This document shows, one piece after another, positions 8,989-64,000 of a stretch of DNA of 64,000 bases. The notes under the pieces are model-generated. The model ran no database searches. It was not told the DNA's origin and saw only the letters and a program-made list of their open reading frames with translations. Made by a program: the position numbers and the translations under genes. Location of the stretch: NCBI RefSeq assembly GCF_014635245.1, contig NZ_BMCP01000002.1:868001-932000 (forward strand), written 5' to 3'. This DNA is from Agaricicola taiwanensis (GTDB lineage: Bacteria; Pseudomonadota; Alphaproteobacteria; Rhizobiales; Methylopilaceae). Position 1 is the first letter of the stretch; every line of letters starts with the position of its first letter.

Positions 8989-9651
8989 ATGAACTATCAG
9001 CAAGCGCGGCAGATGATGGTCGACGGCCAGATCCGGCCGAGCAGCATAACCGATCCGCGGGTGACCGCCGCACTTGGCGCTCTTCCGCGCGAGGAATTCG
9101 TGCCGGCGTCATGGAAGTCTCGCGCTTATGCGGATGCTTCGGTGCCACTGCAGGGGGAGGGGCCGGAAATCCGTCACATGTTGACGCCGACCACGCTCGC
9201 CAAGCTGGTTCAGGCCGCGGAAATCGCCGAGCATGACATGGTGCTGGATGTCGGCTGCGGCAGCGGATATTCAACGGCCTTTATCGCACGCATTGCCGCT
9301 TTCGTGGTCGGTCTGGAGCAGGATGCAGGGCTGGCGAACGAGGCCGCGACCAATCTGGCGAAGACCGAAACGACTAATGCCGTCGTGGTAACCGGCATGT
9401 TGGCCGAAGGGTACAGCGTATCGGCACCCTACGACATCATCATCGTTGAGGGGGCTGTCGAAGCGGAGCCGACCGCACTGCTGGCACAGTTGAAGGATGG
9501 TGGCCGGCTGGCGACCATCGTCGGCGTCGGCGGCAGCGCCAAGGCCACTGTCTATGTCCGCTCCGGTGACACCGTCAGCTCCAAGACCGTCTTCGATGCA
9601 TCCGCACCTATCCTGCCCGGTTTCGCCAAAAGCGTAGGCTTTGTGTTCTGA
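8989..9651 (+). CDS. Protein-L-isoaspartate O-methyltransferase family protein
   Basis: This 220-residue SAM-dependent methyltransferase of the PCMT family would repair isoaspartyl residues or methylate a related target. The SAM-binding motif I is VLDVGCGSGYSTAFIARIA, and the N-terminus MNYQQARQMMVDGQIRPSSI is typical of the alphaproteobacterial paralog found beside tolC-like genes. The start at 8989 has AGAGG ten bases upstream, and a GTG at 8968 is an alternative. A second, canonical pcm gene lies at 29622, so this copy may have a specialised role. The 176-base gap to the next gene shows no clear structure. Confidence 0.85.
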   Translation: MNYQQARQMMVDGQIRPSSITDPRVTAALGALPREEFVPASWKSRAYADASVPLQGEGPEIRHMLTPTTLAKLVQAAEIAEHDMVLDVGCGSGYSTAFIARIAAFVVGLEQDAGLANEAATNLAKTETTNAVVVTGMLAEGYSVSAPYDIIIVEGAVEAEPTALLAQLKDGGRLATIVGVGGSAKATVYVRSGDTVSSKTVFDASAPILPGFAKSVGFVF

Positions 9652-9827
9652 AACGGGCAACGCTTGTTGTCGGCAACCGTGGCCCAAAAGCCGCATCTTC
9701 CCGCGAACGTCCCCTGACGCCTAAGAGCGGGTTCCGCGAGGCTTCTCCCACGGCTAAGATTGCCATTGACGGGAAACTTCAGGCGGATGGCGGGGATTGG
9801 CCGTTCGGCTGCTTACGGAAACAACAT

Positions 9828-11237
9828 ATGTCTTTTGCGTTGCATCACCGGAGATGGGTGGCGCGGTCTGCTTTCGCGGCCGCCCTTCTTTTGGCTATGA
9901 ATTCGTCCGTTTCAGCCGAGACGCTTGAGGCTGCTCTGGCACGGGCCTATGCCGGGAATCAGACGCTGAATGCGCAGCGCGCCGCAACGCGCGCCGTGGA
10001 CGAGCAGGTTCCCCAGGCGCTGTCTGGTTATCGCCCGCAAATTTTTGGCAGCGCCGCCGTTTCGGCGGAAGCGACCGAGGCTCGTGGCGGTGGGCAATCC
10101 CGCACCATCACCGGCTATCCTCGCAGCGTCGGCATCAGCCTTGAGCAAAATCTCTTTGATGGGTTTCGCACGCCAAACTCGGTCCGAGCGGCCGAAGCGT
10201 CGGTGCTGGCATCGCGCGAGGCGCTGCGGAACACCGAGCAGAATGTGCTCTTCGACGCCGTCGAAGCCTATATGAACGTGCTGCGCGATTTCGCCATTTT
10301 CGATCTTCAGCGCAACAACGTCGACCTGATCAACGAGGACCTGCGCGCGACGCGCGAGCGGTTCGATGTGGGTGAGGTCACTCGCACCGATGTCGCACAG
10401 GCGGAAGCCCGGCTTGCGAGCGGGCGGTCGCAGGTCAGCGTTGCCGAGGCGAACCTGAAGGCGAGCCGCGCCATCTATCGCCAGCGCATCGGCAATGACC
10501 CCGGCAAGCTCTTCCCGGGCCGCGCCATCGACCGGCTGCTGCCCCGTTCGATCGATGAAGCCATCCAGATCGGCCATGCCGAGCATCCGGCCATCATGGC
10601 GGCGCTCTACAATGTCGATGCGGCGCAGATGCAGGCCAAGGTCATCGAAGGCGAACTGCTGCCAACGGTCTCAATCGAGGCGGGCGTCACCAATTCCTGG
10701 AACAACGGTGGCAACAGTGGGGGTATCTCAACCAGCGCCGATCGCTCAACCGCCGGTTCCATCACGGGCCGCGTAACCGTTCCCATCTATCAGGGGGGCG
10801 GTGTGTCGTCGCGCGTGCGCCAAGCCAAGGAAACGCTCGGCCAAAGGCGGATCGAAGCCGATCTCACCCGTGAGGAGGTCCGTGCCGCCATCGTGTCCGC
10901 TTGGGGCGCGCTCGAAGGCGCCCGGGCTCAGATCGTGGCAGCCCAAGCCCAGGTGGAAGCTGCGCAGATCGCCCTCAACGGTGTGCGCGAGGAATCAAAG
11001 GTGGGGCAGCGTACCACCCTCGACGTGCTGAACGCACAGCAGGAACTGCTCAATGGCCGCGTGACCTTGATCACCGCGCAGCGGGACCGGGTGGTTGCCT
11101 CCTATGCCCTTTATCAGGCGGTCGGGCGCCTGTCGGCCCGGAGCCTCACGCTCGCGGTTTCCGAGTACAAGCCTACTGAGCATTACAATCAGGTGCGCGA
11201 CAAATGGTTCGGCCTGCGCACGCCTGACGGCCGCTGA
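9828..11237 (+). CDS. tolC: TolC-family outer membrane efflux protein
   Basis: This is a trimeric outer-membrane channel for type I secretion or multidrug efflux. The 469-residue product begins with a signal peptide (RSAFAAALLLAMNSSVSAE, cleaved near residue 30). It contains the two tandem OEP repeats, each with long alpha-helical heptad stretches such as RATRERFDVGEVTRTDVAQA and GVREESKVGQRTTLDVLNAQ. Those two segments are the internally repeated, TolC-diagnostic motif. Its place before popZ and valS matches rhizobial gene order. The partner inner-membrane pump is not in the window. Confidence 0.9.
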   Translation: MSFALHHRRWVARSAFAAALLLAMNSSVSAETLEAALARAYAGNQTLNAQRAATRAVDEQVPQALSGYRPQIFGSAAVSAEATEARGGGQSRTITGYPRSVGISLEQNLFDGFRTPNSVRAAEASVLASREALRNTEQNVLFDAVEAYMNVLRDFAIFDLQRNNVDLINEDLRATRERFDVGEVTRTDVAQAEARLASGRSQVSVAEANLKASRAIYRQRIGNDPGKLFPGRAIDRLLPRSIDEAIQIGHAEHPAIMAALYNVDAAQMQAKVIEGELLPTVSIEAGVTNSWNNGGNSGGISTSADRSTAGSITGRVTVPIYQGGGVSSRVRQAKETLGQRRIEADLTREEVRAAIVSAWGALEGARAQIVAAQAQVEAAQIALNGVREESKVGQRTTLDVLNAQQELLNGRVTLITAQRDRVVASYALYQAVGRLSARSLTLAVSEYKPTEHYNQVRDKWFGLRTPDGR

Positions 11238-51255: not shown

Positions 51256-52677
51256 ATGCTTGAACGCACGCAGGCCGCCGCGACAGCCGAGCCGGACTTC
51301 GCCTTCACCCTGGCGGAGTTCGCGTCGAGCCTCACGCTGGACGCCCTGCCCCCGGATGTCATCGCGGCGGCAAAAACCAACATCTTCGACACACTCGCCT
51401 GTGCGGTGGCGGGCACCTCGGCTCCCGTGGTGGCCGAAACGCTTGAGCTCGTGCGCGAATGGGGCGGCGCGGGCCAGGCCACCGTGGTTGGTTTTGGCGA
51501 CAGGGTTCCCGCACATCATGCGGCCTGGATCAATGGCACCATCGCCCATGCCCGTGATTACGACGACACGCACGACGAGGCGGTGCTGCACGCCGGCGTG
51601 TCCGTCGTGCCCGCGGCCTTGGCGGCAGCGGAGCTCTCGGGAACGGCAACGGGCGCGGATGTTCTGGCGGGTGTCGTTGCCGGCCTGGAAACCGTTTGTC
51701 GGCTTGGCGTCGCGACGTCGATCGGCATCATCGAGAGCGGCTACATGTATACGTCGCTGTTCGGCCATTTTGGCGCGACCGTCGCGGCCGCCCGCGTTCT
51801 GAGGCTCGACCGAGCGCAGACCATCAATGCGATCGGCATCGGCTACAGCCAGGTGGCGGGTAATCATCAGGTGACACGTGATGCCGCCCTCACCAAACGG
51901 ATGCAGCCGGGGTTCGCCGCCAAGGCGGCGCTTGTCTCCGCCCAGCTTGCCCGCAAGGGCGTGCGCGGCGTACAGCACAGTTTTGACGGGCTCGACGGTT
52001 TTCTTCGTGTCTACCTGCGTGGCCTGTTCGATTCCGGCCGCCTTCGCGACGATCTGGGAACCCGGTTCGAGTTCCTGAACCTGAGCTACAAGCCCTATCC
52101 CTGCTGCCGCTTCGATCACACAGCGATCGACGCGGCGCTCGCGGCCAAAGCCGCGGGCGTGGAGGCCGCTGCGATCCGGCGTGTGGAGGTCGGCGTGAAC
52201 CGACAGGCCTATCAGGCGGTTTGCACGCCGGTGGAGATCAGAAAGGCGCCCCGCACGATCGTCGAGGCGCAATTCAGCATTCCGTTCACGGTGGCGGCGG
52301 CTCTCGTCGACGGAGAGCTCAAGCTTTCGCATCTCACCGACGAGGGACTGCAGCGGGCCGATATCCTCGCGCTCGCTGCGCGCGTCGACGGCGTGGTGGA
52401 CGACGAGATTGAGCGGGACTGGAGCCGCAACATCTCGCCGGCGCGTGTGCGGATCGAGCTGACTGACGGACGCATGATCGAGGAGCGGGTGGATCGCCCG
52501 CGCGGTGGAGCGGACAACCCCATGGGCGTCGCTGATTTCGACCGCAAGATGAACGATTGCCTGACCTTTGCGGCCATTCCGCTGCACGCGGATGCAACGG
52601 CGCGCCTTCGTGAAGCGGTGGAGCATCTCGGCGATGCTCCCGATATAGCGTCGCTGCTCGCGCCGGTCTGTCGGTGA
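51256..52677 (+). CDS. MmgE/PrpD family protein
   Basis: This family includes 2-methylcitrate dehydratase (PrpD) and cis-aconitate decarboxylase, acting on tricarboxylates. The 473-residue protein has AAKTNIFDTLACAVAGTSAP, the active-site region HARDYDDTHDEAVLHAG with Asp/Thr/His residues, and TKRMQPGFAAKAALVSAQLA bearing the conserved Lys. A C-terminal small domain (VGVNRQAYQAVCTPVEIRKA) follows. GGGAGG precedes ATG 51256. It is the first gene of an operon. Substrate is not predictable; alternatives are iminodisuccinate epimerase-type or other MmgE enzymes. Confidence 0.88.
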   Translation: MLERTQAAATAEPDFAFTLAEFASSLTLDALPPDVIAAAKTNIFDTLACAVAGTSAPVVAETLELVREWGGAGQATVVGFGDRVPAHHAAWINGTIAHARDYDDTHDEAVLHAGVSVVPAALAAAELSGTATGADVLAGVVAGLETVCRLGVATSIGIIESGYMYTSLFGHFGATVAAARVLRLDRAQTINAIGIGYSQVAGNHQVTRDAALTKRMQPGFAAKAALVSAQLARKGVRGVQHSFDGLDGFLRVYLRGLFDSGRLRDDLGTRFEFLNLSYKPYPCCRFDHTAIDAALAAKAAGVEAAAIRRVEVGVNRQAYQAVCTPVEIRKAPRTIVEAQFSIPFTVAAALVDGELKLSHLTDEGLQRADILALAARVDGVVDDEIERDWSRNISPARVRIELTDGRMIEERVDRPRGGADNPMGVADFDRKMNDCLTFAAIPLHADATARLREAVEHLGDAPDIASLLAPVCR

Positions 52678-53981
52678 TGCAGGCGATCGCTGTCTCCTCT
52701 CTCCGCTTCCGCGATCTCGTCCGACCGGGCGAGGTGATCTCTTGGCCGCAGGGCACCGGTGAGCCGGTCACCCTCGTTCAGGCACTGGTGGCGCAGCGCC
52801 ATGAGCTTCAACACGCGCGTCTGTTCGTGGGGATGCGGCTGACCTCCACGCTCCGCCCCGAGCATGTGGACGCCTTCCAGATTTCCGGGCTCAACGGCGC
52901 GGGCACCAACCGGCAGCTGACCGCAGCAGGTGTGATCGATCTCCTGCCGATGCATGTCTCGGGTGTCACAGCCGCGATCCGCGCCCGGCGGATCCCCATC
53001 GACGTGGTGCTGGTGCCGGTGCGGCCCGACGGCAAAGGTCGTTATTCGGTCGGCCCCATGGCGGACTATGTGCGTGCCATGGTGGAAAACGCGCGCCTCG
53101 TGATCGGCGAATTGAACGAGAACCTGCCGCTCACCGCCCAGGACGCAGTGATCGAGGAAGCCGACATCGATGTGCTCGTCCGGTCGCAAGGGCAAGTGGT
53201 CGAACTCGCCGATCCGGAACCGGCGGATATCGACGTGCGGGTCGCGAGCCATGTGGCGGCGCTTGTTCCCGATGGCGCGACCGTCCAGTTCGGCATCGGC
53301 AGCCTCCCCGTGGCTGTTGCGCGCGCCCTGTCAGGACATCGCGACCTCGGCGTTCACAGCGGCGTCATCTCCGACGCGGTCGTCGACCTGATCGAGAAGG
53401 GCGTGGTGACCAACGCCCGCAAGGGCCTGGATACCGGCGTGAGCGTCACCGGCGGCCTGTTCGGAACCAGACGTCTTTATGATTTCGCCGATGGAAACCC
53501 CGCCCTCCATCTCCGGAGCGTCGATCATACCCACAGCCAGGCCGTGCTTGGCACGCTTCACGCCCTGCATGCCGTCAACGGTGCGGTGGAGGTGGATCTC
53601 AGCGGCCAGATCAATGCCGAAACGGCGGCGGGGCGCTATCTCGGCGCGGTCGGCGGCCAGGTGGATTTTGTACGCGGTGCCCTCAGCTCGCCCGGCGGAA
53701 AGTCCATCATCGCCCTCCCCTCGGCCACACCGGATGAATCGCGGTCGCGCATCGTTCCGCGCCTCGCTGAAGCGGTGGTGACGACCCCCCGCAGCGATGC
53801 CGGCTATGTGGTCACCGAATATGGTGCGGCGGATCTGCGTGACCAGACACTGGCGGAGCGAGCGCGACGGCTGATCGCGGTCGCCCATCCGAAATTTCGT
53901 GACGAACTCTGGCGCGAATGCCGGCCGGTGCTGGTCGCGGGCGCGGTGCTGCCGGTGCAGGATAAGGAACCGGCATCATGA
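52677..53981 (+). CDS. Acetyl-CoA hydrolase/transferase family protein, catalytic Glu replaced
   Basis: This 434-residue class I CoA-transferase fold is related to 4-hydroxybutyrate CoA-transferase, with GAGTNRQLTAAGVIDLLPMH, FGIGSLPVAVARALSGH and the C-terminal VTEYGAADLRDQTLAERARR. In characterised relatives the acyl-CoA-forming glutamate lies in an HTEM motif; here the segment is His227-Ser228-Gly229-Val, so the glutamate is absent. The protein may use another residue or have a different function. ATG 52677 overlaps the upstream stop (TGATG). It sits between MmgE/PrpD and enoyl-CoA hydratase genes. Confidence 0.85.
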   Translation: MQAIAVSSLRFRDLVRPGEVISWPQGTGEPVTLVQALVAQRHELQHARLFVGMRLTSTLRPEHVDAFQISGLNGAGTNRQLTAAGVIDLLPMHVSGVTAAIRARRIPIDVVLVPVRPDGKGRYSVGPMADYVRAMVENARLVIGELNENLPLTAQDAVIEEADIDVLVRSQGQVVELADPEPADIDVRVASHVAALVPDGATVQFGIGSLPVAVARALSGHRDLGVHSGVISDAVVDLIEKGVVTNARKGLDTGVSVTGGLFGTRRLYDFADGNPALHLRSVDHTHSQAVLGTLHALHAVNGAVEVDLSGQINAETAAGRYLGAVGGQVDFVRGALSSPGGKSIIALPSATPDESRSRIVPRLAEAVVTTPRSDAGYVVTEYGAADLRDQTLAERARRLIAVAHPKFRDELWRECRPVLVAGAVLPVQDKEPAS

Positions 53982-54748
53982 GCACCGGCATCATCATAGA
54001 ACACCTGGACAGCCAGATCGTGCGCCTGACGCTCGACCGGCCCGAGCGGATGAACGCCCTCGGATCTGAAATGACTCAGGCCCTGATCGCCGCGGTGGAG
54101 GAGTTGGCTGGAACGGACACGCGCGTCCTCCTGATCACCGGCGAGGGCCGGAGCTTCTGCGCCGGAGCCGACCTCAAGGAGCGCAAGGGAATGGATCACG
54201 ATCAGCGGATCGCTCACAATCGCGCCATCAATGGTGCGATCAACGCGGTGGCGGCACTGCCTTTCGTGACAGTCGCAGTTGTCAACGGCGCGGCGCTGGG
54301 CGGAGGATGCGAGCTCATGCTCGCCTGCGATATGCGTCTGGCCGCGGCGAGTGCCACCATGGGCCTCACCGAGAGCAGGATCGGCGCCTTTCCCGGGGCG
54401 GGCGGCACCCAGCGGCTGCCAAGGCTGATCGGGGCTGCACCCGCGCTTGAAATGATGTTCACCGCTGATCCTGTCAGCGCGGAGCGCGCCGAACGGCTCG
54501 GGCTCGTCAATGAAGTCGTCGCACCCGAGCGCTTGCAGGAGCGCTCATTGGAACTGGCCCGGCACCTTGCCTCCCGCTCGCCGGCAGCACAGAGGGCAAT
54601 AAAGAGGCTGGTCTACGGCGGCGTGGAGCTGCCGCTGGCGGAGGGGCTCGCCAAGGAGCGCGCCGAACTTTCAGCTATCTTCAGTTCTGCCGATTATGCC
54701 GAAGGCCTCGCCGCTTTCGCCGAAAAAAGGTCGCCGCGTTTCTCATGA
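53978..54748 (+). CDS. Enoyl-CoA hydratase/isomerase family protein
   Basis: This crotonase-fold enzyme adds water to a 2-enoyl-CoA. The 256-residue protein has the oxyanion-hole motif GRSFCAGADLKERK. Both catalytic glutamates of true hydratases appear conserved: one in ALGGGCELMLACD, one in LTESRIGAFPGAGGTQRLPR. The C-terminal trimerisation helix is normal. Start and upstream stop overlap as ATGA (53978-53981), and the same occurs with the downstream regulator gene. In this operon it could hydrate a branched or dicarboxylic enoyl-CoA before cleavage by the CitE-like lyase; that link is inference. Confidence 0.92.
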   Translation: MSTGIIIEHLDSQIVRLTLDRPERMNALGSEMTQALIAAVEELAGTDTRVLLITGEGRSFCAGADLKERKGMDHDQRIAHNRAINGAINAVAALPFVTVAVVNGAALGGGCELMLACDMRLAAASATMGLTESRIGAFPGAGGTQRLPRLIGAAPALEMMFTADPVSAERAERLGLVNEVVAPERLQERSLELARHLASRSPAAQRAIKRLVYGGVELPLAEGLAKERAELSAIFSSADYAEGLAAFAEKRSPRFS

Positions 54749-55551
54749 ACAATCACACCCTGCCCGACAGTCCGGCGAGTTATTCCAGCAAGGCGGAGCA
54801 GATCGCCCAGGCCCTGCTGGCCTGGATCGCCACGTCCAAGCTTGGGCCCGGCGACACTCTCGCCACCGAGGCAGAGCTCCTCGCTCAGTTCGGGGTTAGC
54901 CGCCCCACCCTCCGAGAGAGCCTGCGCATCTTGGAATCGCAGGAGGTGATCCGGCTCAGGCCCGGTCCCGGCGGCGGTATCCTGGTGCGGCGTCCCAGCG
55001 TCGATACGCTCGCTCACAGCTTCTCGGTGTTCCTGAGACTGAACGATGTACCCTTCATCGAGGTACTGAAGGCGCGCGAGGCCATCGAGCCGGCTCTCGC
55101 CGCCGAGGCCGCCCTCAACGGCGAGGAAGTGCTGTTCGAGGAGATGCAGCAATCGATCGTCCGGATGAAACAAGCCGACATGAGCGATGAGGCCTTCGTT
55201 GCGGAGAACCGGATGTTCCACCGCCTGGTGGCGCAGGCGAGCGGCAACGAGGTGCTGAAGACGTTTTGGGAAGCGATCAGCATCATGGCAAGCGGCGAGC
55301 ATCACGGCATCCGTTATTCCTTCGGCAACCGCAGGCACATCGCTCAAGCCCACCAGGCGATCCTCGATGCCTGCCGTCGTCGGGATGCTCAGGGCGCCTC
55401 GAGCGCCATGGCCAGCCATGTTGGTGAACTGGAGCACCTCGTGCGGACCCGTTACATGCACCTGCTCGAACAGCCCACGCAGGTGACCGTCCGGACGCGC
55501 CGGCCCTCGGCCCAGGTCGCGGGCTCCGCCACCCGAAAGGAGCAGCCGTGA
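54745..55551 (+). CDS. GntR-family (FadR/FCD) transcriptional regulator
   Basis: This is the likely repressor of the cluster. The 268-residue protein has an N-terminal winged helix-turn-helix (TEAELLAQFGVSRPTLRESL and IRLRPGPGGGILVRRP). An FCD effector domain follows (about residues 95-245) with metal-binding histidines in ENRMFHRLVAQASGNEVLKT, HIAQAHQAILDACRRRDAQG and SSAMASHVGELEHL. FCD regulators usually bind a pathway carboxylate through the metal. It is embedded between hydratase and lyase genes with 4-base overlaps on both sides, so it is produced with the enzymes it may control. Confidence 0.93.
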   Translation: MNNHTLPDSPASYSSKAEQIAQALLAWIATSKLGPGDTLATEAELLAQFGVSRPTLRESLRILESQEVIRLRPGPGGGILVRRPSVDTLAHSFSVFLRLNDVPFIEVLKAREAIEPALAAEAALNGEEVLFEEMQQSIVRMKQADMSDEAFVAENRMFHRLVAQASGNEVLKTFWEAISIMASGEHHGIRYSFGNRRHIAQAHQAILDACRRRDAQGASSAMASHVGELEHLVRTRYMHLLEQPTQVTVRTRRPSAQVAGSATRKEQP

Positions 55552-56462
55552 TTCCCGCTGAAGGATGCAATGTACGCAGCGATGCGATGAGGTCCTATCT
55601 TTTCGTTCCCGGCGACGATGAGCGCAAGCTCATAAAATCGCTCAATTCCGGCGCGGATGCGCTGATCCTGGACCTTGAGGACGCCGTTGCGCCGGACCGC
55701 AAGCGGCTGGCGTGCGAGATGGTGGCGGAGTTCGTGGTCGCTCATCGCGGTACGATGGCCCCTCCCCTTTTCATCCGTGTCAATGGACTCGACACTGGCC
55801 TGTTGATCCCGGACTTAGCGATCGTGACGCGCAGTGCCCCGGTCGGCATCATGCTGCCGAAATGCAGCGGTGCCGCGGATGTCGCACTGGTGTCGGGCTA
55901 TCTCGATGCGCTGGAGGTCCGCGACGGGGTAGAGCCCGGCTCGATCCGCCTGTTCCCCATCATTACCGAGGAGGCGCGGGCACTTGCGGGATCTGCAGGT
56001 TACCATCAGGCGCCCCGACGCCTCACCGCAATGCTCTGGGGCGGTGAGGACCTGGCCGCCGACATCGGTGCTTTCGCGAACCGTACGCCCTCGGGAGACT
56101 ATCATTTTCCGTTCCAGATGGCGCGTGCCTTCTGCCTCTTCGCGTCGGCGGCCGCCGGCGTGGCGGCGGTGGACGCGGTCTATACCGACTTTCGTGACAT
56201 GGCGGGACTGGCGGCTGAGGCGAAGGTCGCTGCCGAGACCGGCTTCTCGGGCAAGGCCGCCATCCACCCGGCGCAGGTGGAGGTGATCAACCGCGCTTTC
56301 ACACCTGACGCTGAAGCAATCCAATGGGCGGAGGCAGTGCTCGCCGCCTTTGCCGGGAAAAGTGCAAGCGGCGTCGCCTCCCTTGACGGCAAGATGCTCG
56401 ATCGGCCGCACCTGCGCCTCGCGGAACGGCTGATCGCGCGCGCCAAACCTCCCGTGCGCTGA
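55548..56462 (+). CDS. CitE-like CoA-ester lyase (HpcH/HpaI family)
   Basis: This TIM-barrel aldolase is related to citrate lyase beta subunit, citramalyl-CoA lyase and malyl-CoA lyase. The 304-residue protein has MRSYLFVPGDDERKLIKSLN, DALILDLEDAVAPDRK, LFPIITEEARAL, MLWGGEDLAADIGAF (metal-binding Glu/Asp) and GFSGKAAIHPAQVEVIN. It would split a 3-hydroxyacyl-CoA into acetyl-CoA plus a 2-oxo acid. The start is GTG at 55548, overlapping the regulator stop. ATG 55587 gives a more standard N-terminus and is a real alternative. Exact substrate unknown. Confidence 0.9.
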   Translation: MIPAEGCNVRSDAMRSYLFVPGDDERKLIKSLNSGADALILDLEDAVAPDRKRLACEMVAEFVVAHRGTMAPPLFIRVNGLDTGLLIPDLAIVTRSAPVGIMLPKCSGAADVALVSGYLDALEVRDGVEPGSIRLFPIITEEARALAGSAGYHQAPRRLTAMLWGGEDLAADIGAFANRTPSGDYHFPFQMARAFCLFASAAAGVAAVDAVYTDFRDMAGLAAEAKVAAETGFSGKAAIHPAQVEVINRAFTPDAEAIQWAEAVLAAFAGKSASGVASLDGKMLDRPHLRLAERLIARAKPPVR

Positions 56463-56492
56463 ATGCGCCACGTTTTCAGACCAGGACATGAC

Positions 56493-57716
56493 ATGACTGA
56501 CGTAAAGGACAACACGACTGCAGAGGGCGGCCACTATCCGCTGTCGGGTGTCGTGGTGATCGATCTCTCGCACATCTACAACGGCCCCTATGCGACCTTC
56601 CTGATGGCCATGGCAGGCGCGACCGTGATCAAGATCGAGCCGCACGAGGGCGAACACCTCAGGATCCGTGCCGCGCTCGGGGGCGCTGCCCTGCCCTTCG
56701 CCATGCTCAACAGCAACAAGAAGTCGATCGCGCTCAACCTCAAATCGCCACGCGGGCGCGAAGTGCTTCTCGACATGGTGCGCAAGGCAGACGTGCTGGT
56801 GGAGAATTTCGCGCCCGGCGTCACCGACCGTCTCGGGATCGGCCCGTCGGTTCTGCAGGAGGCTAATCCGCGCCTGATCTATGCTTCCAGCTCCGGCTAC
56901 GGCCGCTCTGGCCCTTACCGCGATTATCCCGCCATGGACATCACCGTGCAGGCCATGAGCGGCGTTCTCAGCATCACCGGCTTCCCCGACAGCCCTCCGG
57001 TGAAATCGGGGCCTGCGATCTGCGATTTCTTCGCCGGCATCCACCTCTACGGCGGGATCATGACCGCGCTGTTCGAGCGCGAGCGATCTGGCAAGGGCCG
57101 CGTCGTGGAGGTGTCCATGCAGGAGTCGGTCTACGCTTCACTGAGCTCCAATCTCGGCATGTACTTCGGCCGTGGCGGCGCGATTCCGCCACGCACCGGC
57201 AACCGGCATGGTGGGTTGGCAGAGTCGCCCTACAATGTCTATCCGACCAGCGACGGCCACATCGCAATCATCTGCAACAACAATCGGCATTTCCACGCCC
57301 TGACCAAGGCCATGGGGCGCCAGGATCTGAACGATGATCCGCGCTTCCTCGACCTCAAGACCCGAGTGCAGAATATCGATACCGTCGATGAGATCGTCGG
57401 CGCCTGGACGGTCGGGTTCAAACGCGATGATCTGACCAAATTGCTCCTGGAACACCGCGTGCCGCACGCTCCGGTGCGGAACCTTCACGAGGTGATCAAC
57501 GACCCCAATATGCACGCGCGTGGCAGCCTGCAGTGGATCGATCACCCCGAGTTCGGCCGGATCGTGGTGCCGCACAGCCCAATGCGCTTCGATGGTGTCG
57601 ATCTCGTGCCGCTGAAGCCGAGCAGCGGGCTCGGTGAAGACACCGACGCCATCCTCGACTGGCTTGCCTATCCGGATGAGGAGGTCACGAAGCTGAAGCA
57701 GGACCAAGTGGTCTAG
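56493..57716 (+). CDS. CaiB/BaiF family (class III) CoA-transferase
   Basis: This enzyme would transfer CoA from a donor such as succinyl-CoA to a carboxylic acid. The 407-residue protein has LSGVVVIDLSHIYNGPYATF, GATVIKIEPHEGEHLR and NSNKKSIALNLKSPRGREVL. The catalytic Asp lies in DYPAMDITVQAMSGVLS, and EVSMQESVYASLSSNLGMYF follows. ATG 56493 has AGGA upstream; an in-frame ATG at 56463 is less likely. It probably activates the incoming acid for the hydratase and CitE-like lyase. It is the last gene before a palindromic intergenic region. Confidence 0.92.
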   Translation: MTDVKDNTTAEGGHYPLSGVVVIDLSHIYNGPYATFLMAMAGATVIKIEPHEGEHLRIRAALGGAALPFAMLNSNKKSIALNLKSPRGREVLLDMVRKADVLVENFAPGVTDRLGIGPSVLQEANPRLIYASSSGYGRSGPYRDYPAMDITVQAMSGVLSITGFPDSPPVKSGPAICDFFAGIHLYGGIMTALFERERSGKGRVVEVSMQESVYASLSSNLGMYFGRGGAIPPRTGNRHGGLAESPYNVYPTSDGHIAIICNNNRHFHALTKAMGRQDLNDDPRFLDLKTRVQNIDTVDEIVGAWTVGFKRDDLTKLLLEHRVPHAPVRNLHEVINDPNMHARGSLQWIDHPEFGRIVVPHSPMRFDGVDLVPLKPSSGLGEDTDAILDWLAYPDEEVTKLKQDQVV

Positions 57717-57719
57717 CTG

Positions 57720-57749
57720 CGTCATGCCCGGCGCAAATCGGGCATGACG
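57720..57749. repeat. Palindromic intergenic element after the CoA-transferase gene
   Basis: CGTCATGCCCG and CGGGCATGACG form a perfect 11-bp stem with an 8-base loop, three bases after the stop. There is no T-tract. The arms resemble GTCATGCCCGG-type palindromes that I recall as dispersed intergenic repeats in alphaproteobacteria. Only one copy was noticed in this window. It may also act as a weak terminator. Confidence 0.6.
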
Positions 57750-57983
57750 AAACGAGATATATGGCGGCCGCCGTCGCCATATTCGGGCTTGAAGCCTCTT
57801 CTCGGCGACATCCTTGTGCTTCTGACGTTCAGAAGAGATCAAGGGTATCGTAGCGATGCTTCGCGCCCAAGTTGATTGCAGTATTCTGTTCTTTTATTTC
57901 TACCACCAGAAGGATTGACAAAATCATTCTCCCCGGTCACCCTCGATATTCGACGAAATTCTATCTCGATAATAAGTTCTCGG

Positions 57984-58029
57984 CGACTTCCTGAAAGTCG
58001 AAACGACAGGACTACTCCCCAAATTGGGG
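57984..58029 (+). promoter_or_regulatory. Two dyads in the leader of tctB
   Basis: The 327-base gap 57717-58043 holds no gene. Besides the palindrome at its start, TTGACA occurs at 57915-57920 without a clear -10 element. Two perfect 6-bp-arm dyads lie next to tctB: CGACTT-CCTGA-AAGTCG (57984-58000) and CCCCAA-A-TTGGGG (58017-58029). The second abuts the ribosome site GGAGGAGG. They are candidate operators, possibly for the GntR regulator upstream, though neither matches a known FCD consensus. Confidence 0.4.
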
Positions 58030-58043
58030 CGGAGGAGGTTTAG

Positions 58044-58511
58044 ATGATTATCGTCAATCAAAAGGATTTCGCATCCGGGTTGTTGTATATCGCACTGGGA
58101 TCCGTTGTCACTTTTGGGGCAACCAGCTATCCGATCGGCACTGCGGCCAGCATGGGTCCCGGCTTTTTCCCGTTCTGGCTGGGTCTCATCCTGGCGCTGG
58201 TTGGCGGCGCGGTCATCTTTCATTCGCTTGGTAGCGGCAGGAGCGATGAAACAGGATTACTGGAGGCTTGGCACGTCCGCTCTCTCCTTATCATAACGAT
58301 ATCTGTTGTTGCATTCGGCGTAGCATTATCGTTTCTTGGTCTGATAGCGGCAATCGTCGTTTTAACATTGATTTCAAGCACAGCCAGCCAGCAATTTACC
58401 TTGACGCGGGCAGCCATAAATACGGTTTTGCTTCTTTTTATTACCATCGCAGTGTTCGTCTATGGCCTTGGTTTGCAGATCCAAATCTGGCCGCCATTCA
58501 TGTTGAACTAA
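58044..58511 (+). CDS. tctB: Tripartite tricarboxylate transporter, small permease subunit TctB
   Basis: This 155-residue membrane protein is the small subunit of a TctABC importer. Four hydrophobic segments are visible: SGLLYIALGSVVTFGATSY, FPFWLGLILALVGGAVIF, a double-length stretch from LLIITISVVAFGVALSFLGL onward, and LLLFITIAVFVYGLGLQI. GSMGPGFFP-like residues (ASMGPGFFPFW) mark the family. The DNA is notably AT-richer than the CoA operon. A strong ribosome site (GGAGGAGG) precedes it. tctA follows 10 bases later. Confidence 0.9.
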   Translation: MIIVNQKDFASGLLYIALGSVVTFGATSYPIGTAASMGPGFFPFWLGLILALVGGAVIFHSLGSGRSDETGLLEAWHVRSLLIITISVVAFGVALSFLGLIAAIVVLTLISSTASQQFTLTRAAINTVLLLFITIAVFVYGLGLQIQIWPPFMLN

Positions 58512-58521
58512 GGGCGACAAG

Positions 58522-60021
58522 ATGGACATATTTAGTAATATCGCGTTGGGTCTGACGACTGCCCTCTCCTTTCAGAACGTCCTCTATGCACTATTCGGAT
58601 GCCTTCTCGGCACGTTGATTGGCGTGCTTCCGGGACTTGGCCCACTCGCTACCATCTCGATGTTATTGCCATTTACGTTCGGGCTGGAGCCTCTTCCGGC
58701 GCTGATCATGCTTGCGGGGATTTATTACGGCGCGGCCTATGGCGGATCGACAACAGCTATTCTGGTAAACCTTCCAGGAGAAACCTCTTCGGTTGTCACC
58801 GTTATCGACGGTTATCAAATGACCCGGCAAGGCCGGGGCGGTGTCGCAATCGCGACGGCAGCGATTGGCTCGTTCTTCGCCGGTTGTGTCGGCGTACTTG
58901 TTTTGGCTGCTTTTTCTGCGCCATTGACCAAGCTTGCATTTAGTTTCGGGGGCGCGGAATACTTCTCGTTGATGGTTGTCGGGCTGCTCGGAGCGGTTTC
59001 TCTCGCGACGGGATCAATGCTGAAGTCGATCGGCATGGTGATCATCGGCTTGATTCTGGCGCTGATCGGCACCGACTTAAATACCGGAGTTCAACGATTT
59101 ACTTTCGGTCAGCCACATCTCTGGGATGGGCTTGATTTCATAGTTCTCGCTGTCGGCCTGTTCGCTTTCGGCGAGATCATCGCCAGTCTGGAAGCACGAG
59201 GAGACCGGGAGGCGCCCATTGGGGCCATAACCAGCCTTATCCCGACCCGTGAGGACTTCCGGCGTATGGCACCTGCCATTCTGCGGGGGACGGGAATTGG
59301 GTCACTGGTGGGTGTCCTGCCAGGGGCCGGCCTCTCCATGGCGTCGTTCCTCTCCTACAGCCTTGAGAAGAAAGTCTCCCGACATTCTGCTGAATTTGGA
59401 AGCGGCGCGATCGAGGGCGTGGCAGGGCCAGAAGCGGCCAACAACGCCGCGGCTCAAACCGCGTTTGTTCCAACCTTGGCGCTGGGCATTCCCGGCAGTG
59501 CAACCATGGCGTTGATGTTGGGCGCCATGGTCATGCATGACATCCAGCCAGGTCCAGGCGTTATGACCAAGAATCCGGATCTGTTCTGGGGCCTGATAGC
59601 CTCGATGTGGATCGGCAATCTGATGCTGATCGTTCTCAACCTTCCGCTGGTGGGGATCTGGGTCAAGCTCCTTAAGATCCCCTATCATGCTCTCTTTCCG
59701 GCAATCCTGCTGTTTTGCTGCATCGGGGTCTACTCCGTCCAGTTCAGCACTTTCGACATATACCTGGCAGCGGCAGCGGGAGTTGTCGGGTACCTCTTCC
59801 GAAAACTGGAGTGCGAACCGGCGCCGTTGATCCTCGGCTTTGTGCTTGGCCCAATGATGGAAGAGAATCTCAGGCGGGCGCTGGTCCTGTCTCGGGGCGA
59901 TTTCTCGACCTTTGTTACATCTCCAATCTCGGCCGGGCTCTTGTTACTCGCAGCGTTTCTGGTCGCCATCGTTCTCCTCCCCGCCGTCCGCAAGCGTCGT
60001 GACGACGTGTTTTCCGAATAG
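58522..60021 (+). CDS. tctA: Tripartite tricarboxylate transporter, large permease subunit TctA
   Basis: This 499-residue polytopic permease with about 10-12 transmembrane segments imports carboxylates delivered by a Bug protein. The family motif is [20 protein letters not shown] with [20 protein letters not shown], repeated in the second half as [20 protein letters not shown] and [20 protein letters not shown]. Length and motifs are complete. It lies between tctB and a thiamine-diphosphate enzyme gene, with a Bug gene after that, giving a full TctABC set. Confidence 0.95.
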
Positions 60022-60068
60022 CTTGGTCAATCCCGATCCCTGTGCCGTCCGTCCTGCTGAGGAATGAA

Positions 60069-61724
60069 ATGACCGAAAAGGTAATCTACCAAGCCCTCGC
60101 TGAAGCCTTCGTCCGGGAAGGGGTCGATACCCATTTCACCTTGATGGGCACGGGACAGATGCATTGGGCCATCGCGATGTCGAAGATGCCCGGCATGAAA
60201 ACCGTCCACGCAAGGCACGAGCAGAGCGCCTGCGCCATGGCGATCGGATATCATTTCGCCACCGGCAAAGCCGGTATCGCATCGGTCACATGCGGCCCCG
60301 GTTTCACCCAGACCATAACGGCATTGACCTCCGCGGTTCACGCGAAAGTACCTCTCATCATCTTGGCGGCAGATACTCCAGCCGGATCGCGATGGTACCT
60401 GCAGGATGTGGATCAAAGCGCCCTCACCAAAGCAACCGGCGCGCATTACATTGCGGGGCAGAGTCCGCAACTCATGCTCGCCTACGTTCAAGAAGCCTTC
60501 TATGTGGCCAATTATCAAAGACGCCCGGTGGTGCTCAGCATCCCCTACGATCTGATGAAGTTGCCACTCCCCCAGGGAGCCGAGTTTCCCGCCTCTTCGG
60601 CGATCATTCCGAAGCTGCGGCCGACGCCGCCCAATACGGACGATGTCGTAGAGCTGGCAGCCCTCCTGGCGGGAGCGAAGCGCCCCATTGTCATAGCGGG
60701 CCGCGGAGCGGTGGCGTCGGGCGCGGGACAGGCGATTGAGGATCTGGCCGATGCGACGGGCGCTCTTCTGGCGACCACTTTGCCGGCGCGTGGCCTTTTC
60801 GATCATCATCCGTTTTCGATCGGCATCGCGGGAGGATATTCTCGAGAGATCGCTGTCGAGACGTTTGCAGGGGCCGACTTTGTCTTGGCGGTCGGCGCCA
60901 GCCTGACCCATTACACGGTCAATGGCGGGAAACTGTTCCCGCAGGCCACCGTCGCACAGGTTGATCGCGAACCGCTGGGCCTCCAGCAGGGACGACGAGC
61001 CGCGGATTTTTACGTCAAAGCGGACGCGAAACTCACGGCCGAGGCGGTATTGCACGAGGTCAAAGGCAGACCGGTCGCCGCCACCATACGAACCCCCGAG
61101 CTGGCTGCCCAGATCGTTCAGCGCGCGGATGACAGCACCGAAGTTGATATCGAGAAAGAACTTCTTGATCCTCGTCTGGCGGTCCGAGCGTTGGATGATG
61201 TCGTTCCGAGAGATTGGGAAGTTGTCAGCGGGACCGGCCATTGCGCCTATTTCTATGCGCAGATGCGCAACCGCAGTCCGAAGCGCTTTCATGTGCTTCG
61301 TGAATTCGGCGCGATCGGCAGCAGTCTGGCTATGGCCATCGGCGTGGCCGCCGCAAAGGGTGATGGCAAGGTCATGCTGATCGATGGGGACGGTGGCGTG
61401 CTCATGTATGCCCAGGAGCTGGAAACGATCCGGCGTCAAGGCATCAAGCTTCTTATCTGCGTGCTCAATGATGGTGCTTATGGCGCGGAGATTCACAAGC
61501 TCAGAAATGAGGGCGTGGACGACAGCCCCGCCCAGTTTGGCCGGCCGGATTTCAGCGCGATTGCCCGTGGCTTCGGATTGCAAGGATCCACGGTCAAAGA
61601 CCTGGGCGATCTGCCACGCCTCTTCAACAGCTACAGCGATAGCAAGACGGCGGAGATCTGGGACTTTCACATCAGTGATCGCGTCGTTTCACCAGCACTT
61701 CGGAAATACACAGGACACGGATAA
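60069..61724 (+). CDS. Thiamine-diphosphate-dependent enzyme (acetolactate synthase-like)
   Basis: This 551-residue enzyme of the acetolactate synthase/decarboxylase superfamily has an N-terminal Pyr domain with the cofactor-activating Glu51 (VHARHEQSACAMAIGYHF), a central domain (KRPIVIAGRGAVASGAGQ), and a C-terminal PP domain. The PP domain has the metal/diphosphate motif Asp439-Gly-Asp-Gly-Gly ending in VLNDGAYG. All core motifs look active. GAGGA precedes ATG 60069. Its insertion between transporter genes suggests it acts on the imported acid or a 2-oxo acid derived from it, by decarboxylation or carboligation. True acetolactate synthase is unlikely, as no small subunit is adjacent. Confidence 0.88.
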   Translation: MTEKVIYQALAEAFVREGVDTHFTLMGTGQMHWAIAMSKMPGMKTVHARHEQSACAMAIGYHFATGKAGIASVTCGPGFTQTITALTSAVHAKVPLIILAADTPAGSRWYLQDVDQSALTKATGAHYIAGQSPQLMLAYVQEAFYVANYQRRPVVLSIPYDLMKLPLPQGAEFPASSAIIPKLRPTPPNTDDVVELAALLAGAKRPIVIAGRGAVASGAGQAIEDLADATGALLATTLPARGLFDHHPFSIGIAGGYSREIAVETFAGADFVLAVGASLTHYTVNGGKLFPQATVAQVDREPLGLQQGRRAADFYVKADAKLTAEAVLHEVKGRPVAATIRTPELAAQIVQRADDSTEVDIEKELLDPRLAVRALDDVVPRDWEVVSGTGHCAYFYAQMRNRSPKRFHVLREFGAIGSSLAMAIGVAAAKGDGKVMLIDGDGGVLMYAQELETIRRQGIKLLICVLNDGAYGAEIHKLRNEGVDDSPAQFGRPDFSAIARGFGLQGSTVKDLGDLPRLFNSYSDSKTAEIWDFHISDRVVSPALRKYTGHG

Positions 61725-61785
61725 TCGTCCGTGCCTGTGGCCTAGTTAAACAACAACGGCCAACAACGGCCTTAGGGAGGAAGAC

Positions 61786-62745
61786 ATGAGGCGCATCGCT
61801 TCGATCATTGCCGCGCTCGCGGTTATGCTTGGATCTCAATCTGTGTATGCTCAAACCTATCCGTCAAAAGCGATAACCATGGTTATCCCCCTGAGCGCGG
61901 GCGGATCCAATGATATCCTGGGAAGGTATCTTGCCGATGGCTTAAGCAAAGCATTCGGACAGCCGGTCGTGGTTGAAAATCGGCCTGGAGCCGGATCTGC
62001 GCTCGGATCCGCGCATGTCGCGAAGTCGAACCCTGACGGCTATACCATCATGTTCGTCTCCTCGACCTATGCAACGAATGCCGCGACGCAAAGCGGACTG
62101 CCCTTCGACGCCGAGAAAGACCTGCGGCCGGTGGCCCTGGCCGCAGCCAGTCAGTTTGTTCTCGTCGCCGGGCCATCTGTCAAAGCGAAAGATTTCAAGG
62201 AATTCCTTGAAGAAGCGAAGTCGCGCGAGTTGTTCTATGCGTCGACAGGTGTTGGCAGTTCAACCCAGTTCGCGGCCGAACTGTTCAACGATCGCGCCGG
62301 ACTTAAGATGACGCCCGTGCACTACAAGGGAGGAACTGAAGCCCTCGTCGACCTGATAGGCGGCAGAGCGAACGTTTATTTCGGTACCGTCACGCAGGTT
62401 CTGCCATACATCTCAGCCGGACAGGTAAGGCCGCTTGCTATTACAAGCAAGACCAGAAACGAGGCTTTGCCTGATGTGCCCACGGTCGGTGAAATGGGCA
62501 TTACCGGGGCGGAAACAAATATCTGGTGGGGCGTTTTTGTCCCATCCAAGACGCCAGAAGACGCTGTCGTGAAGTTGAACGCCGAAATCAACAAATTCCT
62601 TTCCACCGATGAATCGAAAGCCTTCCTGGCAAAGCTTGGGGCCGAGTTTATTCCGGGAGGAGCGGACGATTTTCAAACCCGTGTGCATACGGAGTTGAAC
62701 ACTTGGCGCAAGCTTGCCAAAGAGCGCGGGATCACAGCGAAATAG
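61786..62745 (+). CDS. Tripartite tricarboxylate transporter substrate-binding protein (Bug family), copy 2
   Basis: This periplasmic receptor is for the TctAB permease encoded just upstream. The 319-residue protein has a signal peptide (IAALAVMLGSQSVYAQ), the mature start TYPSKAITMVIPLSAGGSND, VENRPGAGSALGSAHV, and MTPVHYKGGTEALVDLIGG. It shares most of these motifs with the Bug gene at 49445, and the two are clear paralogs. AGGAAG before ATG 61786 fixes the start. A 13-bp hairpin follows the gene. Confidence 0.94.
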   Translation: MRRIASIIAALAVMLGSQSVYAQTYPSKAITMVIPLSAGGSNDILGRYLADGLSKAFGQPVVVENRPGAGSALGSAHVAKSNPDGYTIMFVSSTYATNAATQSGLPFDAEKDLRPVALAAASQFVLVAGPSVKAKDFKEFLEEAKSRELFYASTGVGSSTQFAAELFNDRAGLKMTPVHYKGGTEALVDLIGGRANVYFGTVTQVLPYISAGQVRPLAITSKTRNEALPDVPTVGEMGITGAETNIWWGVFVPSKTPEDAVVKLNAEINKFLSTDESKAFLAKLGAEFIPGGADDFQTRVHTELNTWRKLAKERGITAK

Positions 62746-62910: not shown

Positions 62911-64000
62911 TCAGTAAGTCTCCAGGCTCATGATACCATCTGTTGCGTCGTTCTTGACGATGGTTCGGCCGATCAGGTCACGGAGCGTTTCCGAGGCGCC
63001 GCCACCGATCGAGCCGTAACGCGCTCCGCGATAGAGTCGGGACACGAGATATTCGTCGGTGAAGCCTACCCCGCCGTGAAGCTGCAGGGCCTCGCTGGTG
63101 ACCCGGATCGACATCTCATTGTTGAAGACCTTGGCGACCGCGGCGAAGAAGGGATCGGGAAAGGGATTAGCGGTGGCGCAGGCCCGGTAGAGCAGTCCAC
63201 GCCCGGCTTCGATGTCCTTCAGCATATCGGCGAGCTTCCAGCGCACGCCCTGATGGTCACCAATCAGCTTTCCGAGCACCTTCCGCTGCTTGACATAGGC
63301 CACCGCCTCATCGAAGGCGCCTTCGGCCAGCCCGAGCGAAATGCTGGGGTTGAGGCAGCGCTGAGTGTTGAAGGCCGTGAGCAGTTTCTTGAAGCCGTCC
63401 TCCCGGATAACGAGGTTCTCCAGCGGCAGTTCGCAGTCACGGAACTGAATCTCGTGGAGATTTTCGCCTCCCATGGTGTGGAAGGTGCCGGTGACGGCAA
63501 AGCCGGGCGTGTCACGTCCCAGGAGGACACAGCCGATGCCCTCGCGCCCCGGCTGACCGTTCACGCGCGTGAAGACCACGAACATCTCGGCTTCAGGGGC
63601 ACGGCTGATCAAGGTCTTGGTGCCGTTGAGGACGATGCGGTCGCCCTTTATGACGGTGTTCGTCTTATATTCCTTCACGTCGGTGCCGGCATCCGGCTCG
63701 GTCATGCAGACCGCCAGCATGCATTCGCCCGACACCACCCTTGGCAGGATGTGATCCTTGATCTCCTTCGGCGCATAGGTCGAGATCACCCGGACCTGAA
63801 CGCCCGTTTCTCCCATGAGCGCCATGGCGGTGACGTAGTCGACCTTGGCGATTTCCTCCAGGACGAGAGCGGTGTCGAGAACCGACAAGCCGAGACCGCC
63901 ATATTCCTCCGGCACAGCCATGCCCATAACGCCGATTTCGGCAAGCTTGCGCATGTTCTCCCACGGGAATGTGCCGTCCAGCCACTTGTGAGCGGAATGG
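62911..64000 (-). CDS. Acyl-CoA dehydrogenase family protein (partial, 5' end off the right edge)
   Basis: This is an FAD flavoprotein of the acyl-CoA dehydrogenase fold, with 363 residues visible. About 20 N-terminal residues lie beyond the window, where the frame stays open. Seen are MAVPEEYGGLGLSVLDTALV, LAVCMTEPDAGTDVKEYKTN (flavin contact), HTMGGENLHEIQFRDC, ALQLHGGVGFTDEYLVSRLY and GSIGGGASETLRDLIG. The catalytic Glu of most members (YEGT motif) is Gly here. The alternative Glu in helix G (ER) reads Thr-Gln-Arg-Cys. Hence dehydrogenase activity is doubtful. It is convergent with the Bug gene. Confidence 0.85.
   Translation of the reverse strand, partial: HSAHKWLDGTFPWENMRKLAEIGVMGMAVPEEYGGLGLSVLDTALVLEEIAKVDYVTAMALMGETGVQVRVISTYAPKEIKDHILPRVVSGECMLAVCMTEPDAGTDVKEYKTNTVIKGDRIVLNGTKTLISRAPEAEMFVVFTRVNGQPGREGIGCVLLGRDTPGFAVTGTFHTMGGENLHEIQFRDCELPLENLVIREDGFKKLLTAFNTQRCLNPSISLGLAEGAFDEAVAYVKQRKVLGKLIGDHQGVRWKLADMLKDIEAGRGLLYRACATANPFPDPFFAAVAKVFNNEMSIRVTSEALQLHGGVGFTDEYLVSRLYRGARYGSIGGGASETLRDLIGRTIVKNDATDGIMSLETY

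Follow-up and report, generated by a model that had tools for sequence, protein, structure and literature searches.

The gene that closes the analysed window, a stretch of 64,000 nucleotides (C2:868001-932000 of a 3.76 Mb genome), encodes a protein of the acyl-CoA dehydrogenase (ACAD) fold that has neither of the two catalytic bases usual in this family, and both losses are shared by 82 relatives in other bacteria, so that its reaction is probably different from the usual oxidation. The explanation favoured here, tentatively and with less than even confidence, is that the protein belongs to a distinct conserved subfamily of FAD-containing, redox-neutral enzymes which would cleave a bond in a short CoA thioester.

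The open reading frame occupies 62911-63999 of the minus strand and runs past the end of the window, its first 25 residues being encoded just outside (contig C2, 932001-932074). The whole gene (L002:5912-7075, minus) specifies 387 aa from an ATG start preceded by a AGGAAGGAA stretch, and the Pfam families PF02771, PF02770 and PF00441 are all matched over their cut-offs. Beyond the window, a LysR gene (L002:7347-8243; GcvA-like, 280.7 bits vs a cut-off of 288) is divergent from the ACAD-fold gene, and the minus-strand stretch L002:8306-19791 holds ORFs named by eye as a dipeptide-type ABC transporter, three FAD oxidoreductase-like proteins and a second MmgE/PrpD-like protein, perhaps a cluster for the catabolism of amino acids or opines. 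The features within the window are collected in Table 1.

Table 1. Features of the ACAD-fold gene and of the plus-strand cluster that faces it (window positions).
Feature	Position	Strand	Remarks
MmgE/PrpD family gene	51256..52677	plus	Pfam; functional link to the ACAD-fold gene is putative
CoA transferase with AcetylCoA_hyd_C domain	52674..53981	plus	Pfam
Crotonase (enoyl-CoA hydratase/isomerase)	53978..54748	plus	Pfam; 55.6% identical homolog two genes upstream of the L104 ACAD ortholog
GntR/FCD regulator	54745..55551	plus	Pfam; 56.5% identical homolog directly upstream of the L104 ACAD ortholog
CitE/RipC-like CoA ester lyase	55548..56462	plus	Pfam HpcH_HpaI; best NCBIfam model RipC, 182 bits, cut-off 375
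Class III (CaiB-type) CoA transferase	56463..57716	plus	Pfam CoA_transf_3; 51% identical homolog in L038; likely activating enzyme
TctB + TctA, tripartite tricarboxylate transporter	58044..60021	plus	Pfam
Thiamine pyrophosphate enzyme	60042..61724	plus	Pfam
TctC solute-binding protein	61786..62745	plus	Pfam; convergent with the ACAD-fold gene
ACAD-fold gene	62911..64000	minus	Residues 26-387 of 387; Pfam ACAD N, M and C domains
Gly357-Gly358-Gly359, YGSIGGGASE motif	62998..63006	minus	YEG motif position; Gly358 replaces the usual Glu
Gln238 codon, AFNTQRCLN motif	63361..63363	minus	Site of the isovaleryl-type base on helix G; pairs in alignments with Gln of the desulfinase and Glu of IVD-type enzymes
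Arg95 (GVQVRVIS)	63790..63792	minus	Arg in 82/83 orthologs, Lys in one
Met84	63823..63825	minus	Aligned with desulfinase Arg84

Both base positions were located by phmmer against the structure of 3-sulfinopropionyl-CoA desulfinase, PDB 5af7 (AYNAQRVGA vs AFNTQRCLN at helix G and TIAGGTAQ vs SIGGGASE at the C-terminus). MAFFT alignments that included as many as 49 homologs gave the same result, so that a placement first made by eye in the preliminary description is now backed by two methods. Its reading of SIGGGASE in place of YEGT is borne out, as is its claim that both usual bases are absent: the Glu or Asp base that catalytic acyl-CoA dehydrogenases carry either in the YEG motif or on helix G is missing from 83/83 aligned orthologs. 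Gln238, C240 and G357-G359 are invariant in all of these, which speaks against a chance change. At helix G, where TQRC had been said to replace an E-R pair, Glu has indeed given way to Gln238, but the Arg is retained (R239, 82/83).

The orthologs comprise the window protein, L027 and L028 (60% and 55% identical to it) and 80 loci, 69-78% identical over their best segment, found by scanning a single genome for each species. That scan retained 80 of 110 confirmed stretches, and its patterns detect only sequences resembling its three-row query. The orthologs are 54-79% identical to the window protein and come mostly from Acetobacteraceae, with some from Rhodobacteraceae; L029 is the ortholog of Rhodopila globiformis. 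A pseudogene or frameshift was ruled out, since no stops occur in any of the 83. R264, Q331 and G335, which we take to be FAD-contact residues, are invariant as well; with these residues kept, and with Q238 and G358 present throughout, the gene is therefore not a decayed one, and its product would be expected to bind FAD. This conservation also bears on the notion of a catalytically silent or partner subunit in a mixed ACAD complex, which we regard as improbable: residues of the active site and those contacting FAD rank with the best conserved, and the window, like the majority of loci, has no second ACAD next to the gene. Three loci (L059, L060, L064) do have a second ACAD (cluster 68) beside the ortholog, and the Marinovum L112 tandem pair, with Thr/Gly in one member and Glu/Gly in the other, speaks for such a subunit. 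That pair, encoded on a Marinovum algicola plasmid (L112:2986-4140 and 1805-2980) beside CaiB and a TRAP carrier, may in itself hold a further base-less subunit or enzyme.

For comparison with other ACADs, a set of 49 rows was used, of which this clade supplied 13, the desulfinase clade 12 and other ACADs 24. The own-genome paralogs L007_2, L009_3 and L009_4 were left out of it for a badly aligned helix-G region; the C-terminal motif of L007_2, too, reads IGGG. The two base sites hold Gln and Gly in this clade and in all 12 desulfinase-clade rows, the desulfinase being the one sizeable group to share the pair. Glu stands at one of the two sites in 22 of the 24 other ACADs; of the remaining two, L112_1 has Thr/Gly and L127_c, a short sequence, has Trp/Gly. 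The IVD-like proteins L005, of the same genome, and L122 carry Glu on helix G. A related ACAD clade (L015, L016, L113, L114, L116), with ERCGN at helix G, and thus Glu kept, and IAGG at the C-terminus, offers a natural E-to-Q comparison. The helix-G Glu is also present in 4/4 ACADs from other CitE-linked plasmid clusters (L123, L124, L125, L127), which favours a real functional difference in this subfamily and counts against a working acyl-CoA dehydrogenase, for example one for a methylsuccinyl-CoA-like dicarboxylyl-CoA, that would use Glu89 as substitute base or a water held by Gln238. Such a dehydrogenase seems unlikely to us; the invariance of Glu89 in 83/83 orthologs is in its favour, yet this residue aligns next to, and not at, the helix residue that we take, from mapping onto isovaleryl-CoA dehydrogenase (IVD), to face the substrate.

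The pocket differs from that of the desulfinase in further respects. Position 84 is Met in 83/83 orthologs and Arg in 12/12 desulfinase-clade rows, and Arg84 is reportedly essential in the desulfinase (an observation ascribed to Schurmann, 2015). Position 83 is Ala in 81/83 orthologs and Arg in the own-genome glutaryl-type paralog L010; in glutaryl-CoA dehydrogenase, Arg94 is the carboxylate-binding residue. Judged from the alignment, neither known anion-binding Arg of the position 83/84 helix is present in this subfamily. The Arg of GVQVRVIS had been put forward as an anion ligand: R95 is indeed conserved, and is found in 7/24 other ACAD rows too, but it does not occupy the place of desulfinase Arg84; by helix spacing it could sit one turn past the pocket residues. 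R158, invariant in the orthologs and found in 1/24 other ACAD rows, is another candidate. Residues that are invariant in the orthologs and not shared by the desulfinase clade include M84, G88, E89, Q93, L155 and R158, of which Leu155, presumably beside the flavin, is present in 83/83 orthologs and replaced by an aromatic residue (Trp, Phe or Tyr) in all 35 alignable other rows.

An AlphaFold2 model of the part within the window (residues 26-387), built with 37 orthologs, reached pLDDT 83.9 and pTM 0.83 and is weak over the last 30 or so residues, including the GGG loop (pLDDT 41-63 per block of ten). Its PDB matches have Z 35-39, and Foldseek and VIA-align both put the desulfinase first (5ahs, Z 39.0, rmsd 3.0, 344 aligned). 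The likeness to the base-less desulfinase noted in the preliminary description is upheld by this rank and by the shared Gln and Gly. The structural comparison with desulfinase and IVD that it proposed was less decisive: SCAD, isobutyryl- and butyryl-CoA dehydrogenases fall within one Z unit of the 5ahs match and 1ivh (IVD) has Z 37.1, so on this model the fold ranking does not separate the desulfinase from ordinary dehydrogenases. Two maximum-likelihood trees were calculated with the motif columns excluded, the second without L111_3, L112_1, L127_b and L127_c. In both, the subfamily forms its own clade (100/100), apart from the desulfinase clade and nested among ACADs that lack the C-terminal Glu, in a larger group that is itself supported. 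Gln238 needs two changes by parsimony; a topology constrained to unite the Gln rows was not rejected by the AU test (p 0.058 and 0.104). The trees thus favour, rather than prove, independent loss of the bases in the desulfinase and in this clade, in which case shared chemistry need not follow. That the protein is itself a 3-sulfinopropionyl-CoA desulfinase was rejected as highly improbable: the Gln/Gly pair, the fold rank and the best NCBIfam model (NF042439) point that way, but the score of 287.6 bits is half the curated cut-off of 600, Met84 takes the place of the essential Arg in every ortholog, and the clade is a separate one.

The genes around the ACAD-fold gene suggest a catabolic setting. 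Homologs of the window crotonase and GntR regulator stand upstream of the ACAD ortholog in L104, which supports a link between the window cluster and the ACAD-fold gene. The same arrangement also speaks for a dehydrogenase with a substitute base, as does the likeness of the window MmgE/PrpD, CoA transferase, crotonase and RipC-like lyase genes to an itaconate/methylsuccinate cluster whose ACAD is a proven dehydrogenase (PMC12290011); the plus-strand cluster at 51256-62745 resembles that degradation pathway without matching it. Within the genome itself, a dedicated SucCD partner was not found (best SucC match 33%, one gene), nor was a dedicated HpaI partner (matches of only 29-32%), so that the CaiB-type transferase is preferred as the activating enzyme here.

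Neighbours of the orthologs over the 80 loci were chosen by an automatic, uncurated ORF script. Within 6 kb of the ACAD these were HpaI-type aldolase in 35 loci, TctC in 33, SucC-like in 28, SucD-like in 23 and CaiB-type in 13, and in 21/80 a SucC-like gene is the immediate neighbour, on the same strand; in L101 the SucD-like ORF (9105-10004) overlaps the ACAD ORF (10001-11173). The order ACAD, HMG-CoA-lyase-like, CaiB occurs in L044, L045, L047 and L051. Family scans lend support to the names of these neighbours, representatives of the SucC-, SucD-, HpaI- and CaiB-like groups scoring below curated cut-offs and the HMG-CoA-lyase-like one above its own (271 bits vs 246 for L047). From the recurrence of TctC, SucCD-like ligase, class III CoA transferase and HpaI aldolase beside the orthologs, we infer that the enzyme acts on the CoA thioester of an imported acid. 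Roseomonas-type MAGs (L069, L071, L072, L074, L082-L084, L086, L089, L090, L093 and others) have an FMO-like monooxygenase, HpaI-type aldolase, ACAD and then TctC, which may represent a different start of the pathway with the same enzyme. Some MAG contigs (L087, L032, L039 and others), titled for example Klebsiella pneumoniae or Asaia bogorensis, look mislabelled, their gene order being Acetobacteraceae- or betaproteobacterium-like.

None of the 60 nearest relatives (17 in the same family) has a match to the ACAD-fold gene above 38% at E 1e-60, an ortholog was found in 2/384 other genomes of the class, and the best matches were 39% at E 1e-68 in a phylum sample of 397 other genomes and 38% among the 277 records that a tblastn against plasmids gave. 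For the window CaiB gene, 13 of 20 relatives have a match at E 1e-60, and these reach only 34-37%. With no match above 38% in the 60 relatives, and CaiB matches of only 34-37%, the ACAD-fold gene looks acquired.

In the redox-neutral reading that we favour, an organic acid would enter through the TctABC carrier and be converted to its CoA thioester by a class III CoA transferase, here probably that of Table 1, and in other hosts by a SucCD-like ligase instead. The ACAD-fold enzyme would position the thioester above the flavin, Gln238 taking the place of the base as a hydrogen-bond partner. Lacking an acidic base, it would remove no C2 proton, being desulfinase-like in this one respect, and another bond of the thioester would be broken without net oxidation, with loss of CO2 or another leaving group; the product would then pass to crotonase, lyase or aldolase steps. 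The nearby crotonase and CitE-type genes count against this scheme in that they fit a dehydrogenase route.

An unlikely but serious competitor is a dehydrogenase or oxidase that decarboxylates a 2-carboxyacyl-CoA (malonyl-CoA type), similar to the benzylmalonyl-CoA dehydrogenase IaaF, in which departure of the 2-carboxylate as CO2 would replace proton abstraction and be followed by hydride transfer to FAD. GGG occurs in all IaaF members, and these still oxidise because decarboxylation replaces proton abstraction, which explains why the base is not needed (PMC8360864). The nearby crotonase and lyase genes would use the enoyl-CoA product. GGG is, however, found in 11/12 desulfinase-clade rows too and is hence not specific to IaaF, and no mutase was seen among the neighbour clusters that were annotated. 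The possible non-oxidative role raised in the preliminary description is thus favoured by alignment, conservation and fold rank, and is opposed by the oxidation that IaaF performs with GGG and by neighbours that suit a dehydrogenase.

By sequence, this base-less ACAD-fold subfamily is distinct from the desulfinase, the sole characterised base-less type compared with it in this manner. A bolder and more doubtful version of the redox-neutral reading holds that it represents a third, undescribed chemistry of the fold, a base-less, redox-neutral C-C (or C-heteroatom) cleavage in a widespread pathway for an imported acid, evolved independently of the desulfinase. Databases will label the subfamily as dehydrogenase; a flavin fold kept with both bases lost would instead mark a change of reaction within a catabolic pathway of CoA ligase or transferase, aldolase and tricarboxylate carrier, and would join desulfinase and IaaF, so far the two known examples of the fold giving up proton abstraction. 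No paper on this subfamily was found in the CC-licensed literature.

Among known systems, the (RS)-methylsuccinyl-C4-CoA dehydrogenase of the itaconate cluster shares the gene company of MmgE/PrpD, CoA transferase and CitE-type lyase, the basis on which it was compared, and differs in being a proven dehydrogenase. The PA0879/C. necator ACAD sequence was not found via RipC-like, MmgE/PrpD or CoA-transferase neighbours in plasmids, and a search of 398 genomes for the RipC family at E 1e-95 returned none, its 14 controls being silent too. IVD likewise lacks Glu in its C-terminal motif (GAG) and is close in fold, but has a helix-G Glu where this protein has Gln238; that Glu is confirmed as the base (E286, precursor numbering), and the C-terminal loop has Gly-Ala (PMC12369846). 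IaaF, likened here by its published description, shares GGG in place of YEG, whereas its operon serves indoleacetate degradation. The desulfinase (AcdA/AcdDPN7, NF042439, PDB 5AF7/5AHS) has the same fold, the helix-G Gln, the Gly at the YEG Glu position and the gene company of SucCD or class III CoA transferase with TctC; it differs by Arg84 for Met, Trp for Leu155 and Gly for Arg158, and by a two-residue deletion in the present protein within the MGxRG segment (HTMG--GENL). In Advenella mimigardefordensis, SucCD activates 3-sulfinopropionate, and genes for a family III CoA transferase, LysR and TctC lie beside the ACAD-fold desulfinase gene (PMC5373536). This similar outfit, taken with the same loss of both bases, is why we consider cleavage of a CoA thioester without net oxidation the likeliest activity of the subfamily described here.
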